Positions 34,371 to 43,776 of a DNA stretch of 64,000 bases are shown here, one piece after another; position 1 is the first letter of the stretch; every line of letters begins with the position of its first letter. The DNA lies in NCBI RefSeq assembly GCF_030409055.1, contig NZ_CP116619.1, positions 1,459,628-1,523,627 of the forward strand. The letters are read 5' to 3'. This DNA comes from Trichocoleus desertorum NBK24. Lineage in GTDB: Bacteria > Cyanobacteriota > Cyanobacteriia > FACHB-46. A program made the position numbers and the translations under genes. The notes below the pieces were generated by a model. The model had not been told where the DNA came from, ran no database searches, and saw only the letters and a list, made by a program, of their open reading frames with translations.

Positions 34371-36407
34371 ATGAATACAACCAGTGACGTTCTTATCATT
34401 GGCGGCGGCATCGTTGGCCTTGCGATCGCGATTGAGCTGAAATTGCGGGGAGCCACGGTGACAATTCTCAGCCGTGATTTTAAGCAAGCCGCTGCTCACG
34501 CCGCTGCGGGGATGCTAGCGCCCCAAGCCGAAGGCATTCCTCCAGGGCCAATGCTGGAGCTGTGCTTGCGGTCGCGCCAACTTTATCCCAATTGGATTCG
34601 CAAGCTAGAGGAGCTAACGGGTGCAAAAACGGGTTATTGGCCCTGTGGCATTTTGGCTCCTGTCTATGCAGCAGATGCCAGAGCAGATCTGAGAGAGGCG
34701 GCTGCGATCGCCCAAGCCTCCGGGACAGAGGCGCAATGGCTGGATCAATCTGTGATTCACCAATACCAAGCGGGTTTGGGTTCTGAGGTAGTTGGGGGTT
34801 GGTGGTTTCCAGAAGACGGTCAAGTGGATAACCGCGCCCTCACCCAAACTTTATGGATCGCTGCCCAAACTCTCGGCGTCAATATTCAAGATGGCGTCAG
34901 CGTCCAAGCGATTCAGCAGCAACAGCGCCAGGTGGTCAGTGTCCAAACCTCAGTGGGAGATTGGCAAGCCAAGCATTATGTCCTAGCCACAGGGGCTTGG
35001 TCGAATGAACTGTTGCCAATTCCGGTGCAGCCTTGCAAAGGCCAAATGTTAGCTGTTCAGTCACCCGACTCTCCTCAAGGTTTACCCTTACGACGAGTTT
35101 TGTTTGGCTCCGATTTGTATATTGTGCCGCGCCAAGATGGTCGGATTATTATTGGAGCCACTAGTGAGGAGGTTGGTTTTGCCCCCAACAACACCCCCGC
35201 GGGTGTTCAAGAGTTATTAGCACGAGCGATCCGGTTGTATCCAGCCCTACAAGATTTTGCTTTACAAGAGTTGTGGTGGGGCTTTCGGCCCGCAACGCCT
35301 GATGAACTACCAATTTTAGGAACCAGTGCTTGTGCTAACCTCTGGCTGGCTACGGGGCACTACCGCAATGGCATTTTGCTGGCACCGATTACCGCTCAAC
35401 TGATTGCCGAGGCGATCGCCCAACAACCCGATCCATTGCTAGAGCATTTTAGTTGGCAGCGGTTTCATCAAGCGAAACCCTCGACTCCCCCTACTTCGTT
35501 AGCAGCTTCCTCCACTCCTGCTGCTCTTAGTTCTTCCACCCACGTTCTCCCAAGGTCTAATTCTGTGTTGACTCACGCTGTTCCTGCCTTAGCTCAAGCC
35601 GATATCACCACGCTAGATAGCCCTTTAGTGATTGCTGGGCGATCCTTTCGCTCCCGCCTGATGACGGGGACTGGTAAATATCGCAGCATTACGGACATGC
35701 AGCAAAGCGTGGAAGCGAGCGGTTGTGAAATTGTGACGGTGGCAGTACGGCGGGTGCAAACTAAAGCCCCAGGCCATGAAGGTTTAGCTGAAGCGCTGGA
35801 CTGGAGCAAAATTTGGATGTTGCCCAACACCGCAGGCTGCAAAACCGCAGAAGAAGCAATCCGAGTCGCCCGCTTAGGCCGAGAAATGGCAAAACTCTTG
35901 GGCCAGGAAGACAACAATTTTGTCAAATTGGAAGTGATTCCAGATACCAAATACCTGCTACCCGACCCCATCGGCACGCTAGAAGCAGCCGAGCAATTGG
36001 TTAAAGAAGGGTTTGCCGTGTTGCCCTACATCAATGCCGATCCACTGCTAGCAAAGCGATTGGAAGAAGTAGGGTGTGCAACGGTAATGCCCCTGGGTTC
36101 CCCAATCGGCTCCGGACAAGGAATCAAAAATGCGGCCAATATCCAGATCATTATTGAGAACGCCCAAGTGCCTGTAGTGGTAGATGCAGGTTTAGGCGCA
36201 CCTAGCGAAGCCGCTCAGGCAATGGAAATGGGAGCTTCAGCTCTACTGATTAACACTGCGATCGCCGAAGCGCAAAATCCGGTAGCAATGGCTAGGGCAA
36301 TGGGATTAGCAGCAGAAGCAGGTCGTCTAGCTTACCTAGCAGGTCGTATTCCGGTGAAAAGCCACGCCAGTGCTAGCTCACCCCTCACGGGCACCATTAC
36401 TCAGTAA
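34371..36407 (+). CDS. thiO/thiG: Fused glycine oxidase ThiO-thiazole synthase ThiG
   Basis: A bifunctional thiamine-synthesis enzyme of 678 residues. Residues 1-365 are the FAD-dependent Thi[20 protein letters not shown] nucleotide site, [26 protein letters not shown] and [11 protein letters not shown]. It oxidises glycine to the imine. A Ser/Thr/Pro/Ala linker (about 370-405) follows, then ThiG (about 415-670) with [10 protein letters not shown], the Schiff-base lysine region [21 protein letters not shown] and [12 protein letters not shown]. ThiG builds the thiazole ring from the imine, DXP and ThiS thiocarboxylate. The fusion is known in cyanobacteria and would channel the unstable imine. 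No TPP riboswitch is evident upstream. Confidence 0.94.
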
Positions 36408-36875: not shown

Positions 36876-39392
36876 GTGTTATACCTCCAGATTTCCTCGC
36901 CACGATTAAGGGTATTGTTGGTGCAACTAGCTGATCGCCACTCCCCATTGCTCCGCATGACTGGGCCGAATCAAACCAGTTCACATTTGAATCGGCAAAG
37001 TTACCAGCGTTTAAAGCGAGCGCTGAGTTTACACTTACGCCGTCAAATTTTTGTGGCGGTCTGTGATGATCTAGCCCTCCGGAATCGCTTAGCAGCTCGG
37101 CTCCATGCTGAACTCGCCTATCCTGCTGCCTCGGCAGCCACACGTCACCCTGTAGAAGCTGGGCCTGCTTCAGATTACCCTCAACTTGTCACGCTCAACC
37201 TCAATCTCAACGACCCCAATCCGATCGCTCAGGTGACTCAGTGGTTAGCTCGTCATCCTTTACCGAAAGGATCAGGAACCGAGCCACCGACCCCTAGCTT
37301 CCAAATTTTGGGGACTGAGCGTCTGACGCGACAATCAGCTGCGGTACAGCGACTGTTTCTCAGCTATCTCCAAGGGTGCGATCGCAGCTTACCCACGCTA
37401 GAAGCCAGCTTGTTGCTGTGGGTGCCTCATCCCTGGTTTCGGGCAATTCAACAGTCTGCTCCAGAATTTTGGGGTTGGCGCACTGGCGTATTTGAGTTTG
37501 TTGGAGAACCCACACCGCTTTCAGTCATTGCTTCCCAACCCAAACACAGTCATTCAGGTCAGTCAGCGGCTCTCCCTGCTCAGCCAACTCCAAAGCATCC
37601 CCAACCCGCGATCGCGGCTCCCGCCACCCCTCTCCCGGTTGCACCTGCCAACCAGAAGCCCGCAGATGCACCGATTAGTTTACGGGATTTATTAACGGAA
37701 GAGTTAGCTTTCGGAAACCGGGTGGACGAGTCGGATGCAACTCCAGACGCAACGGTAGGAGAAAAGACAAGCGATCGCTTAGCTGCCGCTCCAGTCTCTC
37801 CTCCACCCAACTCTTGGAGTGTCCACGTTCCTACAGGCACCACGCCGACGAGCCAGTTCCCAGTCAACAGCCTACCCGCTCGCTCTGGGTTCTACTCAGA
37901 ACCACCTGCTTCAGAACCGCAGCCAGTTCCTACAGTTGCCCCGACAGCAAACCCATCAGAGTTAACCAATTCCGCACCGGAGGATCTGCTCCCAGGGATT
38001 GCCACCGAACTTGTCAATTTAATTCTGACAGCGGCGATCCAAGAGATAAGCGGAACAGCAGCGCTACCAGTTAATACTCCGGCTCCCTCTCTCTCCCGCC
38101 TCCACACCGCTTTACCTGCCCCTTTAGTTGCAGCTTTAGAGGACTTTCCACCTTTACGGATGTTGCGGCATCTAGAGCAACTACATCAGCAACAAGCTGA
38201 AACTACAGCCCTAGCAGTTAACTATCGTACTCTCGGTAATTTTTATCGCGATCGCATTGAGCAAGGACACAATTCTCCCCAACAGTTGGCGATCGCCATT
38301 CAAGCCTACGAACAAGCTTTAATTCATCTAGAAGAATCTTCGGCTTTAGTTCCCGATATTCTCAATGACTTAGGCAACCTCTATTGGATGTTGTCTCGGT
38401 TTCCTCCCAACCCCGAACAACGGTTGCTTTATCTAGAGCAAGGCATTGCTGCCTATCACTTAGCGCTGACTCACGTTAGTTCGGAGCAGTCGCAATCCTA
38501 CGCCATGATTCAGAACAACTTAGGAGCGGCCTATGGAGACTTGGCCCGCTACCGAGAACCAATCGAGAATTTACAATGCTCGATTACGGCCTACGAGGAA
38601 GCACTACGCCATCGCAAGCCAGAGTCAGAACCGTCAAAATATGCTTCAACCCAAAATAATTTGGGTACGGCTTACTGGCACTTGGCGCAACACCATCAAC
38701 CTGCCTTGCATCTCAAGCAAGCCATCGTCGCTTACAACGAATCGCTCAGCTTCTACAATCCAGAGCAGGAGCCGTTGCACTATGCCATGATCCAGAACAA
38801 TCTGGGCACGGCTTACTGGAATTTAGCCCAGCACGAGCAACCAGAAGAGTTTCTCAATTTGGCGATTAGTTGTTACCGCATTGCCCTGATTTACCGCACT
38901 GCTGAGGTCAATCCCGCCGCCTATGCTGCGACACAAAACAATTTGGGTACGGCTTACTGGCACCTCGCTAACCGCTCCAAAGACCAACCTGAAGCTTATC
39001 AGGCAGCGTTGCGATCGGCGATCGCAGCTTATGAAACCGCTTTAAACACCGTAGAGCAACTGAACCAAACTCCTCATGGGGCTGGCACTAAGCTCACCTT
39101 TGATTTGTATGCAACTCACAACAATCTGGGTTTAGCCCACTACCAAGTAGCAACAGACCAAGCAGGTGCTATTCCTGTCCCGGCTCGATCTGCTCATTTA
39201 GAAGCATCTTTGCGCCACCATCTCCAAGCCTTACAGGGATGGCAGCAACAACCTGAGTTTCACCAGACAGCGCTAGGCTATGTTCTACAAACAGTACGGG
39301 CTTTTTACAGCGAGTGCGGTCTGCAAGGCCAGAACTTAGCGCTATCTCTATTGCCAGGTCATTTGCTACCCGAAATTCTGCCGCGCCTGTAG
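36876..39392 (+). CDS. Large TPR-repeat protein
   Basis: 838 residues from GTG 36876, which has GAGGA 9 bases upstream; ATG 36957 is an alternative start. Residues about 30-210 form a compact alpha/beta domain (IFVAVCDDLALRNRLAARLHAELAYP, LLLWVPHPWFRAIQQSAPEFW). A Pro/Ala/Ser-rich linker follows (about 220-400). The C-terminal half is an array of TPR-like repeats of about 45-50 residues built on YAxxQNNLGTAYWxLA, seen at least four times. The long spacing between repeats is typical of a group of cyanobacterial TPR proteins. Partners are unknown. Confidence 0.82.
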   Translation: MLYLQISSPRLRVLLVQLADRHSPLLRMTGPNQTSSHLNRQSYQRLKRALSLHLRRQIFVAVCDDLALRNRLAARLHAELAYPAASAATRHPVEAGPASDYPQLVTLNLNLNDPNPIAQVTQWLARHPLPKGSGTEPPTPSFQILGTERLTRQSAAVQRLFLSYLQGCDRSLPTLEASLLLWVPHPWFRAIQQSAPEFWGWRTGVFEFVGEPTPLSVIASQPKHSHSGQSAALPAQPTPKHPQPAIAAPATPLPVAPANQKPADAPISLRDLLTEELAFGNRVDESDATPDATVGEKTSDRLAAAPVSPPPNSWSVHVPTGTTPTSQFPVNSLPARSGFYSEPPASEPQPVPTVAPTANPSELTNSAPEDLLPGIATELVNLILTAAIQEISGTAALPVNTPAPSLSRLHTALPAPLVAALEDFPPLRMLRHLEQLHQQQAETTALAVNYRTLGNFYRDRIEQGHNSPQQLAIAIQAYEQALIHLEESSALVPDILNDLGNLYWMLSRFPPNPEQRLLYLEQGIAAYHLALTHVSSEQSQSYAMIQNNLGAAYGDLARYREPIENLQCSITAYEEALRHRKPESEPSKYASTQNNLGTAYWHLAQHHQPALHLKQAIVAYNESLSFYNPEQEPLHYAMIQNNLGTAYWNLAQHEQPEEFLNLAISCYRIALIYRTAEVNPAAYAATQNNLGTAYWHLANRSKDQPEAYQAALRSAIAAYETALNTVEQLNQTPHGAGTKLTFDLYATHNNLGLAHYQVATDQAGAIPVPARSAHLEASLRHHLQALQGWQQQPEFHQTALGYVLQTVRAFYSECGLQGQNLALSLLPGHLLPEILPRL

Positions 39393-39423
39393 TTACCAAC
39401 AGGTGCCAATAGGTCTAATAGGC

Positions 39424-40275
39424 TTAGGCATCAAAGTAGCGATCGGGGTGAAGTGCAGGTGGCACCCCTAGCACCGGACAAGGGCTGTTCGCACTGAGAC
39501 TCCGCACGATAGGATTCTTGGGGGAATCGCAACCTAACCACAACAGCACTGCCGATTCTGCTTTCGCGACACTCCGCAACTCTTGAGCGACTTGCCCAAA
39601 CCGCAGGTGTGTTTTGAGAGAACCGCGCCACTCATTGGCGAGACAGCGAGCTTGCCACAAAATCTGGTCTGCCTGCTCAAATTGCTGCGCCTGTCCCATT
39701 GGGTACTTACTCAGAGGTAGCCCAGCATCCTCTAGGGTGGGCTCATCCAAAGTCGCGATCGCTCCGACGCGAGCCAAAGTTGCACTATCACTATAGGTAT
39801 CGGAGTAGCTATCGGATTCCAGCGCTAGGCCAGATCCTAAAGTAGGCATTTGGGCAGCACGTTTAGCAGCGGATTTTTTGCTAGCTCTGACTTGACGAAA
39901 ATCAGTCGTAGTGGGAATACTATCTAAACAATCGGCGGGGTTGATGACGTAAACCACCTGAACTGTCACTTGCCGACGAGTTGCTAGGCGGGTTTGGTGA
40001 GCAATCCAAAGGGTCAAGTCCAGAGCTGTCTGACTCTTGGGAGAGCTATTATAGCCCACCACTAAATTAATTTCGGCATCGGCTCCAGAGGCCACTTCTG
40101 AGGCATGGTTGGCTTGTACGTGTCGTTTGGCAGCACGCCGAGTTCGGCCTGGTAGATGCAGCTTACCAGAGGAGCGATCGCCTTTGGGTCGCTGAGGCAA
40201 AAGCAAAATTTGATCGATTAAGTCAGTTGAGCCCAGTGCGCCTTGGAGCCGCACCAACATTGGCATAATGTTCAC
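39424..40275 (-). CDS. Universal stress protein (Usp-domain) family protein
   Basis: 283 residues from GTG 40275, which has GGAGAGG 8 bases upstream; ATG 40266 is possible. A Usp-like fold is suggested by INLVVGYNSSPKSQTALDLTLWIAHQT, VTVQVVYVINPAD, a helix-rich middle and ESAVLLWLGCDSPKNPIVRSLSANSPCPVLGVPP, the usual GSxSxxxxxxxxCPVLVV end in altered form. A long insert (about 130-205) contains DSYSDTYSDS. The leader carries a probable c-di-AMP riboswitch, so expression may follow osmotic or potassium state. Some Usp proteins bind ATP or c-di-AMP; this one lacks a clear ATP loop. Confidence 0.75.
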   Translation of the reverse strand: MNIMPMLVRLQGALGSTDLIDQILLLPQRPKGDRSSGKLHLPGRTRRAAKRHVQANHASEVASGADAEINLVVGYNSSPKSQTALDLTLWIAHQTRLATRRQVTVQVVYVINPADCLDSIPTTTDFRQVRASKKSAAKRAAQMPTLGSGLALESDSYSDTYSDSATLARVGAIATLDEPTLEDAGLPLSKYPMGQAQQFEQADQILWQARCLANEWRGSLKTHLRFGQVAQELRSVAKAESAVLLWLGCDSPKNPIVRSLSANSPCPVLGVPPALHPDRYFDA

Positions 40276-40282
40276 GATGAAA

Positions 40283-40311
40283 ACCTCTCCAGACTACTTG
40301 TTTCGAGAGGT
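40283..40311 (-). promoter_or_regulatory. Hairpin that would hide the Usp ribosome-binding site
   Basis: On the minus strand ACCUCUC (40311-40305) can pair with GAGAGGU (40289-40283), 7 bp. The latter contains most of the Shine-Dalgarno sequence GGAGAGG. It lies between the riboswitch and the start codon and could be the expression platform. Confidence 0.5.
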
Positions 40312-40424
40312 GGGCCAGGAAACAGACATCATTAGCTCTGAGAGAAATCTCTCCAGGGAATTTGATATCTGCTAGGAGACCGCAATGACCATTGCTATCA
40401 AAAGCCTGCGTCCTAGGTACTCCT

Positions 40425-40580
40425 CCCACTGCCGACGGAGTTAGCTGACGGGCTAAGACTGGAAGGTGTCTCTCTCAAATTAATTTTTGAGATTAGCCCC
40501 AAAAATCGGTTCCTCCGTTCCAGACCAAACAGCATTTTGAGTTTTCACTCGGACGCTTCTTGAGCCGGATTAGGCTACCC
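40425..40580 (-). promoter_or_regulatory. c-di-AMP riboswitch (ydaO/yuaA class)
   Basis: Read on the minus strand, the conserved blocks of this class occur in order. GCC-UAAUCC lies near the 5' end (about 40577-40567). ACGGAGGAACCG is at 40518-40507, UUUUUGGGGCUAAUCU at 40505-40490 and CCGUCAGCUAACUCCG at 40451-40436, then GGCA closes P1. A variable hairpin (UCUCAAA...UUUGAGA) sits between the second and third blocks, as in known members. The motif lies 150 bp before the Usp gene. These RNAs bind cyclic di-AMP and usually switch off genes for osmolyte, potassium and wall functions. Confidence 0.88.
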
Positions 40581-41118
40581 ACTGAATGTTTTACCAAACG
40601 CCTTTTTGATGTAGAAAACGTCATCAAAAGACGGTTCGATTTCAGAGCAAAGATTGCGCTCAGATGTTATCTGAATAACATTAAGTAATCCTTCATCAAC
40701 ACGGTTGCATCAGGAATTACTTAGTTAGGTTGATTGAACCCTTCATCCTTGAGCCACTATAGCTCACGCTAAACTCTACGGTCATCTATCTAAAAGCAGT
40801 AGCCAAGTTTACGAGGAATCGGATATTTGCCGCTGTATCCTCGATTGCTATTCTCCAGAAACTCAATCAGGAAAGAACAATCGCACTTTGAATTCCTCTG
40901 AATTGAGCTGAAGAATGGTCAGGTTTTGATCACAATCAAATATTAAGATTCTTGAATGCGATCGCTGGCTTAGCTTGGTTCGCTCGTAGGGTGACGCTGT
41001 TGATCTTAGCAAACAGCTTGAGTGAGTGCGGTTTACAATTAAAAAGATGAATTGTCGGCCAATTTCGCAAGAAATTTTGCCTCTTGAGATAGATCGCAAC
41101 CTGATTGGAACTTAGTGC
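40581..41118. other. Divergent intergenic region upstream of riboswitch and helicase
   Basis: 538 bp that should hold the promoter for the riboswitch-Usp transcript and that for the helicase. It has a small palindrome TGTTAT-CTGA-ATAACA near 40665. No gene or further RNA is evident. Confidence 0.5.
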
Positions 41119-43776
41119 GTGAACGTTTCCTCTACTCTGCCAGAACTAAATTTACGAGAGCTGTTTCCCTTTGAATTAGATGCGTTTCAGTATCAAGCGA
41201 TCGCAGCTCTGAATGCAGGACGCTCGGTCGTGGTCTGTGCGCCGACAGGGTCAGGCAAAACGTTAATTGGCGAGTATGCCATCTATCGCGCTTTAGCCCA
41301 AGGTAAGCGGGTGTTGTACACAACTCCTCTTAAAGCGCTATCTAACCAGAAGTTGCGAGATTTTCGCGATCGCTTTGGAGCTGAGCAAGTTGGGCTACTG
41401 ACGGGAGATGTGTCCATCAACCGAGAAGCCCCAATTTTAGTCATGACGACCGAAATCTTCCGGAACATGCTCTATGGCACTCCCATCGGAGAAGTCGGCA
41501 CCTCAATGGTGGGGGTAGAGGCGGTAGTCTTAGACGAGTGCCATTACATGAACGATCGCCAGCGGGGCACGGTCTGGGAAGAATCGATCATCTATTGTCC
41601 ACCAGATGTCCAGTTAGTAGCGCTATCGGCCACCGTTGCCAACAGTGATCAACTCACGGACTGGATCGGTCGGGTTCATGGCCCCACAGAACTGATCTAT
41701 TCCGATTTTCGGCCTGTTCCTTTACGCTTTCACTTCTGCAACCCCAAGGGTTTATTTCCCCTCCTCTCCCAAGACCAGAAAAAAATTAGCCCTCGTCTAA
41801 AACCTAAGGGGGGTAGGGGACAGCGCAAGCGTGAGGATGAACCGATTCTGGCTTATGTGGTTAGCCAGTTACAGCAACGGGACATGCTCCCAGCAATCTA
41901 CTTTATCTTTAGCCGTCGCAACTGCGATCGCGCCATTACTCAAGTCGAGCATTTATCTCTGGTTAACGAGGCAGAAGCGGCAAAGCTGAAACACCTGATT
42001 GATGAATTTCTAATGCGGCATCCTGATGCAGGGCGATCCGGGCAGATTGAGCCGCTCTACCGGGGTATTGCCGCTCACCACGCCGGAATTTTGCCTGCTT
42101 GGAAGGGCTTAGTCGAAGAACTTTTTCAGCAAGGGTTGATCAAAGTAGTCTTTGCTACCGAAACCCTAGCTGCTGGCATCAACATGCCCGCCCGCACTAC
42201 GGTAATTTCCAGCCTCTCCAAGCGCACTGACTTGGGACATCGCTTGCTCAATCCTTCGGAGTTTCTCCAGATGTCAGGTCGCGCAGGTCGGCGGGGCATG
42301 GATGAGTTGGGGCATGTGGTGACGGTGCAAACTCCCTTTGAGGGGGCTAAAGAAGCGGCTTACTTGGCAACCATCGGGGCTGACCCGTTGATCAGCCAAT
42401 TCACCCCCAGCTATGGCATGGTCTTGAACTTGCTGCAAACCCACACCTTAGAGGAAGCGCAAGAGCTAGTGGAGCGCAGTTTCGGGCAATATCTGGCCAC
42501 CTTGTCTTTGCGACCTCAGCAACAGGCGATCGCGGACTTGAACAAAGAACTGGAGCAATTGCAAGCCCAACTCGAACTGGTAGACCCACAACTGTTTTCT
42601 AGTTACGAAAAGCTGCAAGAGCGATTGAAAGAAGAACGCCGCCTGCTCAAAATTTTGCAGCACCAAGCCCAGGAAATGCAATCGGGTGACATTGCAGTCG
42701 CACTTTCATTTGCGATCGCGGGCACCGTACTAGGGCTAAAAGGAGAGAACGTTCCCACTGCCGAACCGATACCTGCGGCTCTAGTAATGAAAACTCCAGG
42801 TTCAGGCCAATTCCCTTATCTCGTTTGCTTGGGGCAAGATAATCGCTGGTATGTCGTAGCGGTCGGAGATGTCGTCAGCTTGCGAGCAGAGATTCCTCGC
42901 ATTAAAGCAGTAGACAACCTGATGCCCCCGGCGGAGATGCCGCTGAAACCGGGACAAAACCGCAAAGGCAACGAAGAAACTGGCGCGATCGCGCGGCAAA
43001 TTCCCCCGGTGCCCTCTCTGGCCGAAACCGCCCCCGAAGTCCAAGCCCAAATAGAACGCTTACAAGCTGTCCAAGCTCAAGTAGAAACCCATCCTCTGCA
43101 TCAGTGGGGTAATTCTGCCACGCTGTTAAAGCGGCAGCGCCGAGTTCAGAATTTGCAAGAAGACATTGCTCAGCGCCAAGCCAAATTAGAGCAGCTATCC
43201 CATCAGCACTGGGAAGAATTTGTCCATCTGATCGAGATTTTACAAACCTTTGGGGGTCTAGATGGCTTAATACCAACTCCCTTGGGCCAAGCAGCAGCAG
43301 CGATTCGGGGCGATAACGAGCTGTGGCTAGGTCTCTCCCTGATGTCTGGAGAACTCGATGATCTAGACCCACAACATTTGGCAGCCACTTGTGCTGCATT
43401 AGTCACGGAAGTTTCTCGTCCTGACAGTTGGACTCGCTATCATGCTTCCCCAGAAGTCCAGGAAGCTTTAGGCGGGTTGCGGGGCTTACGACGACAGTTG
43501 TTCCAGGTACAACGACGGCATCAAGTAGCGCTTCCCGTTTGGCTAGAAGACGAGCTAATTGCTTTAGTTGAGCAGTGGGCTTTGGGAGTGGAATGGGCGG
43601 AACTGGGAGAAAACACCAGCTTAGATGAGGGCGATGTGGTGCGGATTTTGCGGCGGACTTTAGATTTTCTGTCTCAAATTCCCCATGTCCCCCATCTGCC
43701 AAATTCGCTGCGCCAAAATGCCTATCGAGCGATCCAACTGATCGATCGCTTCCCGGTTAATGAGGCAGTTGCCTAG
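41119..43776 (+). CDS. Ski2/Mtr4-like DEAD/DExH-box RNA helicase
   Basis: 885 residues from GTG 41119 (MNVSSTLPELNLRELFPFELDAFQYQAI). Helicase motifs are APTGSGKTLIGEYA (motif I), TTPLKALSNQK (Ia), VVLDECHYMND (II), ALSATVAN (III), TETLAAGINMPARTTV (V) and QMSGRAGRRGMDELG (VI). A helical stretch rich in Glu/Gln (about 475-525), a central beta region and a C-terminal DSHCT domain (about 715-880) match the Ski2/HelY group. These unwind RNA with 3'-5' polarity, in eukaryotes with the exosome. The bacterial partner is not known. Confidence 0.92.
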   Translation: MNVSSTLPELNLRELFPFELDAFQYQAIAALNAGRSVVVCAPTGSGKTLIGEYAIYRALAQGKRVLYTTPLKALSNQKLRDFRDRFGAEQVGLLTGDVSINREAPILVMTTEIFRNMLYGTPIGEVGTSMVGVEAVVLDECHYMNDRQRGTVWEESIIYCPPDVQLVALSATVANSDQLTDWIGRVHGPTELIYSDFRPVPLRFHFCNPKGLFPLLSQDQKKISPRLKPKGGRGQRKREDEPILAYVVSQLQQRDMLPAIYFIFSRRNCDRAITQVEHLSLVNEAEAAKLKHLIDEFLMRHPDAGRSGQIEPLYRGIAAHHAGILPAWKGLVEELFQQGLIKVVFATETLAAGINMPARTTVISSLSKRTDLGHRLLNPSEFLQMSGRAGRRGMDELGHVVTVQTPFEGAKEAAYLATIGADPLISQFTPSYGMVLNLLQTHTLEEAQELVERSFGQYLATLSLRPQQQAIADLNKELEQLQAQLELVDPQLFSSYEKLQERLKEERRLLKILQHQAQEMQSGDIAVALSFAIAGTVLGLKGENVPTAEPIPAALVMKTPGSGQFPYLVCLGQDNRWYVVAVGDVVSLRAEIPRIKAVDNLMPPAEMPLKPGQNRKGNEETGAIARQIPPVPSLAETAPEVQAQIERLQAVQAQVETHPLHQWGNSATLLKRQRRVQNLQEDIAQRQAKLEQLSHQHWEEFVHLIEILQTFGGLDGLIPTPLGQAAAAIRGDNELWLGLSLMSGELDDLDPQHLAATCAALVTEVSRPDSWTRYHASPEVQEALGGLRGLRRQLFQVQRRHQVALPVWLEDELIALVEQWALGVEWAELGENTSLDEGDVVRILRRTLDFLSQIPHVPHLPNSLRQNAYRAIQLIDRFPVNEAVA

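Follow-up and report, generated by a model that had tools for sequence, protein, structure and literature searches.

A predicted c-di-AMP riboswitch precedes a recurring Usp gene in filamentous cyanobacteria, with a leader layout that points to translational control

Introduction

In Bacillus, the c-di-AMP riboswitch acts as a transcriptional OFF switch (ydaO/kimA, kdpFABC; PMC6488665), whereas the Corynebacterium glutamicum nlpC riboswitch is an OFF switch operating on translation, with a proposed alternative GGAG/CTCC pairing (PMC9960051). Studies of cyanobacteria have connected c-di-AMP with salt and osmotic stress (PMC5986932), as well as with potassium and survival through the night (PMC5897029), so that the osmotic, potassium, and day–night control invoked in an earlier note on the DNA analyzed here agrees with published work. 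A c-di-AMP riboswitch has been reported as verified for Synechocystis slr0753, a putative chloride efflux transporter (PMC10117731). On the protein side, the closest described systems are TeaD, a Usp protein modulating the TeaABC ectoine transporter (PDB 3hgm; PMC9006882), and KdpD, whose USP domain binds c-di-AMP (7ji4; PMC8214093); the KdpD of Synechococcus elongatus is also a c-di-AMP binder (PMC5897029).

Here we describe a c-di-AMP riboswitch in front of a Usp gene within a 64,000-nucleotide stretch of the Trichocoleus desertorum NBK24 genome (hereafter, the window). The element shares its cores, P1, and pseudoknot architecture with the RF00379 class, but belongs to a Usp-type form that adds a 5′ GUGGGU, the CCUUCCA/UGGGAGG pseudoknot, and a downstream layout ending over the ribosome-binding site, a combination found in 0 of 96 transporter-type leaders. 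The slr0753 riboswitch is cyanobacterial like that of the window, but controls a transporter rather than Usp. The predicted switch logic resembles that of C. glutamicum nlpC, although the gene is different; in nlpC, the released CTCC is itself proposed to block the ribosome-binding site, whereas the window leader carries a dedicated CCUCUC strand.

Results

A c-di-AMP riboswitch upstream of a Usp gene

The earlier note had placed a c-di-AMP (ydaO/yuaA) riboswitch at 40425-40580 on the minus strand, ahead of a Usp-domain gene of a cyanobacterium, and had suggested an Infernal comparison with RF00379. The Rfam scan bore out this assignment with a full-length match (model positions 1-134) at 40544-40415 on the minus strand, with a score of 69.2 bits (E 5.9e-14) that far exceeds the gathering cut-off of 38; besides it, a tRNA was the sole gathering-level match in the whole 64-kb window. 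The RF00379 cores GGNGGANCC and CCCGUCAGCUAAC are present, together with P1, whose GCC/GGC strands were placed via homologues, and a pseudoknot between the internal loop and the strand 3′ of P1 (CCUUCCA/UGGGAGG). The Rfam fit missed the true 5′ strand and put P1 inside the long P2 hairpin. Homologous leaders carry GUGGGU-N-GCCUAAU directly 5′ of P1, and the window counterpart, GUGGGU-A-GCCUAAU at 40582-40569 (1 match versus 0.01 expected from shuffles), puts the end originally suggested, 40580, nearer to the true 5′ end than the 40544 of the Rfam match. The element at 40582-40415 is an RF00379-class c-di-AMP riboswitch, with ligand binding predicted; its parts and the gene behind it, the Usp-domain gene that had been recognized from the outset, are collected in Table 1.

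Table 1. Features of the riboswitch leader and the Usp gene (window coordinates).
Feature	Coordinates	Strand	Basis
c-di-AMP riboswitch aptamer with Usp-type 5′ extension	40415..40582	(-)	RF00379; 5′ end from homologous leaders
P1 5′ strand GCC (of GCCUAAU), pairing with GGC 40433-40431	40573..40575	(-)	conserved in homologue alignment
Long P2 hairpin UCCGG...UCUGGAA, the insert misleading Rfam	40519..40569	(-)	unconstrained minimum-energy fold
Conserved core GGAGGAACC	40508..40516	(-)	homologue alignment and fold
Conserved core CCCGUCAGCUAAC	40440..40452	(-)	homologue alignment and fold
Pseudoknot 5′ strand CCUUCCA, loop CACCUUCCAG, Usp-type	40460..40466	(-)	41/59 Usp leaders, 0/96 transporter leaders
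Pseudoknot 3′ strand UGGGAGG	40422..40428	(-)	every cell paired with the 5′ strand, 19 distinct composite rows
Hairpin H1, outer stem AGGAG 40424-40420 with CUCCU 40378-40374	40374..40424	(-)	folds and homologues
H2 anti-ribosome-binding-site strand ACCUCUC	40305..40311	(-)	40/59 Usp leaders, 0/96 transporter leaders
Ribosome-binding site GAGAGGU, the H2 3′ strand	40283..40289	(-)	99.2% of cells paired
P0 5′ strand GUGGGU, proposed partner GCCCAC 40315-40310	40577..40582	(-)	39/59 Usp leaders, 0/96 transporter leaders
P0 3′ strand GCCCAC, beside the anti-ribosome-binding-site strand	40310..40315	(-)	homologue alignment and fold
Usp-fold protein gene, 283 aa, GTG start	39424..40275	(-)	Pfam Usp, 30.2 bits against a cut-off of 24

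The GTG start of the Usp gene is supported by homologues that begin at the same residue. The gene converges with a TPR-repeat protein gene (36876-39392, plus strand), leaving about 31 bases between the two (window 39392-39424). Elsewhere in the window, a single open reading frame (34371-36407, plus strand) fuses an FAD-dependent oxidoreductase (DAO, ThiO-like) to a ThiG thiazole synthase.

The genome to which the window belongs (5.46 Mb, one contig) contains two RF00379 elements and one diadenylate cyclase domain, and c-di-AMP can therefore be made there. The second riboswitch (G000:C1:2879873-2880030; locus L067, 8475-11911, minus strand) precedes a nitrate-type ABC operon encoding, in order, an NrtB permease, a Tat-signal NMT1_2 binding protein, and an NtrCD-type ATPase. 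This operon is unlinked to Usp in the window's genome, whereas the two are linked in many other genomes, linkage being what one would look for in a TeaD-like regulator. A search of the genome for CitMHS, made with one homologue as query and no positive control, found none.

Recurrence and targets across cyanobacteria

The pairing of riboswitch and Usp gene recurs across many filamentous cyanobacteria. Among 291 cyanobacterial genomes, RF00379 occurs in 156 and the Usp homologue in 108; the riboswitch is found in 104 of the 108 genomes with Usp versus 52 of the 183 without it (Fisher p 1e-33, ignoring relatedness). In 69 of 80 named Usp loci drawn from GTDB species, a riboswitch core lies upstream of Usp on the same strand, and none of the 80 has it on the opposite strand. 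Most of the 11 loci lacking the core are cut by contig ends; at four of the others (L105, L106, L111, and L132), Infernal likewise found no RF00379 upstream of Usp.

Several layouts are represented among the 80 loci. A riboswitch followed by Usp accounts for 29, and 8 show the order riboswitch, ABC operon, riboswitch, Usp. The order riboswitch, ABC operon, Usp occurs alone in 9, and at further loci it is found close to a CitMHS gene. Many genomes have Usp as the final gene behind a riboswitch-led ABC operon, without a separate riboswitch for it. In Microcoleus vaginatus WJT46-NPBG5 (L124, 1038-7753), three tandem riboswitches precede the CitMHS/ArsB-type transporter, the ABC operon, and Usp. 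At two loci (L128 and L130), the riboswitch is retained, and the ABC operon that precedes Usp seems to be truncated or in part missing. Other RNAs seen near Usp loci are a HEARO RNA (RF02033; L132, 4919-5155) and a Cyano-1 RNA (RF01701; L148, 4109-4180).

A census of 85 of the best-scoring cyanobacterial riboswitches in which the core was found revealed a three-member regulon composed of Usp, the nitrate-type ABC transporter, and the CitMHS/ArsB-type transporter, the last of which we take to be the slr0753 orthologue. The first gene was an NrtB-type ABC permease in 28 cases, a CitMHS/ArsB-type transporter in 25, Usp in 22, SBP-like in 1, and another gene in 9; by-eye naming of the latter yielded sucrose-phosphate synthase-like genes (3), a P-type cation ATPase, a KefB-like antiporter, and a few more. 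The ABC operon, CitMHS/ArsB-type, and Usp units frequently occur together on one strand. The riboswitches preceding sucrose-phosphate synthase-like genes (L030, L172, and L189) fit an osmoprotectant role, which Nelson in 2013 reportedly described for c-di-AMP riboswitch targets.

Architecture of the Usp-type leader

Comparison of 164 distinct leaders, including 59 from Usp genes and 96 from transporter genes, shows that most Usp leaders constitute a distinct riboswitch subtype with a layout covering the ribosome-binding site. The marks of the Usp target are a 5′ GUGGG (39/59), the loop CACCUUCCAG (41/59), and a CCCACCUCUC-like sequence before the start (40/59). GUGGGU, the CCUUCCA/UGGGAGG pseudoknot, and the ACCCACCUCUC...GAGAGGU hairpin occur jointly in 38 of the 59 Usp leaders and in none of the 96 transporter leaders. 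About a third of the Usp leaders lack the subtype features. In a separate test over whole genomes, a 29-base pattern of the subtype, CACCTTCCAGNCTNNGCCCGTCAGCTAAC, has 51 sites in 51 of the 291 genomes, with a Usp homologue directly downstream in 50 of the 51. The leader comparison and the whole-genome test share some genomes, and kinship among the species makes the counts partly dependent, so the p-values overstate the evidence; the contrast is nevertheless clear in itself. The lone Usp-type riboswitch lacking Usp (L076, 2611; G038:C150:32595-32623) has a similar anti-ribosome-binding-site hairpin and is followed by a short unrelated open reading frame (MKNYYKQWILLAKQELNG...). Within the literature searched, no description of the Usp target or of the Usp-type leader turned up, although earlier surveys of the riboswitch class may already list Usp genes.

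The pairing counts come from a composite alignment built by hand from short pieces, six rows of which were hand-corrected after a pattern mismatch, and the alignment leans toward structure, since the 3′ strand of H1 was chosen partly by pairing. Covariation is observed in both hairpins. The terminal pair of H1 varies among GC, AU, CG, UA, and UG across homologues, and 5 of 19 distinct rows have a C-G pair of H2 replaced on both sides by U-A. The pseudoknot of the transporter-type cyanobacterial riboswitches is mostly CUCUCA/UGAGAG instead. H1 and the pseudoknot are mutually exclusive, because the 5′ strand of H1 shares AGG with the 3′ strand of the pseudoknot. H2 (ACCUCUC/GAGAGGU) is a conserved hairpin over the ribosome-binding site, at which it ends, 7 nt before the GTG start codon; its anti-ribosome-binding-site strand takes the form (A/G)CCCACCUCUC and, in heterocystous lines, CCC(U/C)GCUUCUC. 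The long-range P0 helix has 95.6% of cells paired, with the outer pair failing in 4 of 19 distinct rows, and is put forward only as a proposal, since none of its pairs changes on both sides in those 19 rows.

Minimum-energy folding left the ribosome-binding site covered both without and with the aptamer constraint (mean unpaired 0.03 and 0.07, respectively), so the folding shows neither switching nor its direction. Two further pairings were considered and rejected: direct pairing of a released CUCC strand with the ribosome-binding site is possible in the window (UCUCC/GGAGA) but is not conserved in all homologues, and an anti-sequestor pairing between the anti-ribosome-binding-site CCUCUC and the pseudoknot strand GGGAGG breaks down in the heterocystous variants.

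The Usp protein

The protein passes the gathering score of Usp (PF00582) and has the corresponding predicted fold, consisting of a single Usp domain interrupted by a variable segment of low confidence and preceded by a conserved N-terminal stretch. In the AlphaFold2 model (56 sequences), mean pLDDT is 74.4, with most of the Usp core above 90 and the middle segment at low confidence. The predicted fold matches MJ0577 with Z 14.2 (rmsd 2.7, 133 aligned), TeaD with Z 12.7, and the c-di-AMP-bound KdpD domain 7ji4 with Z 11.0, and TeaD chains make up 3 of the 5 best Foldseek matches. A sequence search for solved relatives returned chance-level matches only, and in NCBIfam the protein matches no family. 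The Walker A motif G-X2-G-X9-G-(S/T) of ATP-binding Usp proteins (UspFG type) occurs in 0 of 56 homologues.

TeaD and the window Usp each comprise a single Usp domain, and the teaD gene is clustered with an osmotic transporter. TeaD, however, has been described as an ATP binder and works with a TRAP transporter, whereas the window family lacks Walker A, is ABC-associated, and differs further in its long variable insert and conserved N-terminal stretch. With the KdpD USP domain, the window protein shares the Usp fold, the absence of Walker A, and a retained first glycine; unlike KdpD, it has no histidine kinase. None of the 56 homologues has the complete KdpD-type c-di-AMP motif, (A/G/C)XSXSX2N...(Y/F) (PMC8214093). 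Of the five motif positions, three are present, the A/G/C residue in 55 of 56 and Ser78 and Tyr109 in all, but position 81 lacks Asn, and only 11 homologues have Ser at position 76.

Discussion

The placement of a known riboswitch class before a recurring cyanobacterial Usp target is well supported. On balance, we consider it probable that the riboswitch controls Usp translation as an OFF switch and that Usp belongs to the c-di-AMP regulon, where it would likely tune a transporter. The leader presumably binds c-di-AMP, upon which the CCUUCCA/UGGGAGG pseudoknot would hold the strand otherwise used by H1, and the 5′ GUGGGU could pair beside the anti-ribosome-binding-site strand, the role we envisage for P0. 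H2 would then keep the ribosome-binding site covered, and little Usp would be made. When c-di-AMP falls, H1 would replace the pseudoknot, leaving the leader more open to ribosomes. The anatomy of the Usp-type leader points to translational control, and OFF is the most likely direction by analogy, because c-di-AMP riboswitches are OFF in Bacillus and C. glutamicum. Given the recurrent pairing with the riboswitch and the RNA layout covering the ribosome-binding site, the Usp protein is very probably one of the factors by which the cell controls salt, ions, or osmotic state; by analogy with TeaD of Halomonas, its job may be to tune a transporter in ionic or osmotic adjustment.

An alternative is that c-di-AMP binding terminates transcription ahead of the Usp gene, as with Bacillus ydaO/kimA and kdpFABC, for which the transcriptional mode is the published one (PMC6488665). 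A short U run (UUUU) does follow H2 in the window, but a scan of the minus strand over 39300-41200 found no terminator-like site in the Usp leader, H2 ends at the ribosome-binding site, 7 nt from the start codon, and mixed sequence follows GAGAGGU in most homologues; we regard transcriptional control as unlikely here. It could also be that Usp is a mere passenger, the riboswitch deriving from a transporter operon lost at this locus and being left before its last gene. The many genomes in which Usp closes a riboswitch-led ABC operon, and the shortened ABC remnants at which the riboswitch is kept, would suit such a history. Yet the leader in the window belongs to the Usp-specific subtype, which none of the 96 transporter leaders shows, and eight loci maintain separate riboswitches for the ABC operon and Usp, with a ninth carrying three riboswitches, so that we disfavor the loss of a transporter operon at the window locus and hold it to be very improbable.

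A different question is whether Usp is itself a c-di-AMP receptor, which would create a direct feedback or feed-forward loop. The earlier note had raised such feedback on the grounds that the Usp superfamily includes c-di-AMP binders, and the KdpD examples, the lack of Walker A combined with a retained first glycine as in the KdpD binders, and the three motif positions found in nearly all homologues lean in that direction. The suggestion is not supported by the homologues, which lack a complete motif, or by the predicted fold, which is no closer to 7ji4 than to ordinary Usp proteins such as MJ0577 and TeaD, many of which rank above it. The motif positions that are present are probably common across the Usp family. 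Direct binding of c-di-AMP by this Usp thus seems rather unlikely. A bolder combination, in which a Usp-specific riboswitch subtype provides a long-range closing helix and a translational platform while the Usp protein gates the ABC and CitMHS/ArsB-type transporters and possibly senses c-di-AMP, is in our estimate improbable; if true, c-di-AMP would act on the same pathway at both the RNA and protein levels.

Under the favored reading of translational control of Usp, the Usp-type leader would represent a conserved variant, probably acting on translation, of a riboswitch known mainly for terminating transcription. Few cyanobacterial c-di-AMP targets have been worked out so far. Judging from the census, a single small Usp family stands among the three main riboswitch targets, beside two transporters, and the role of Usp is therefore directly testable by deletion.
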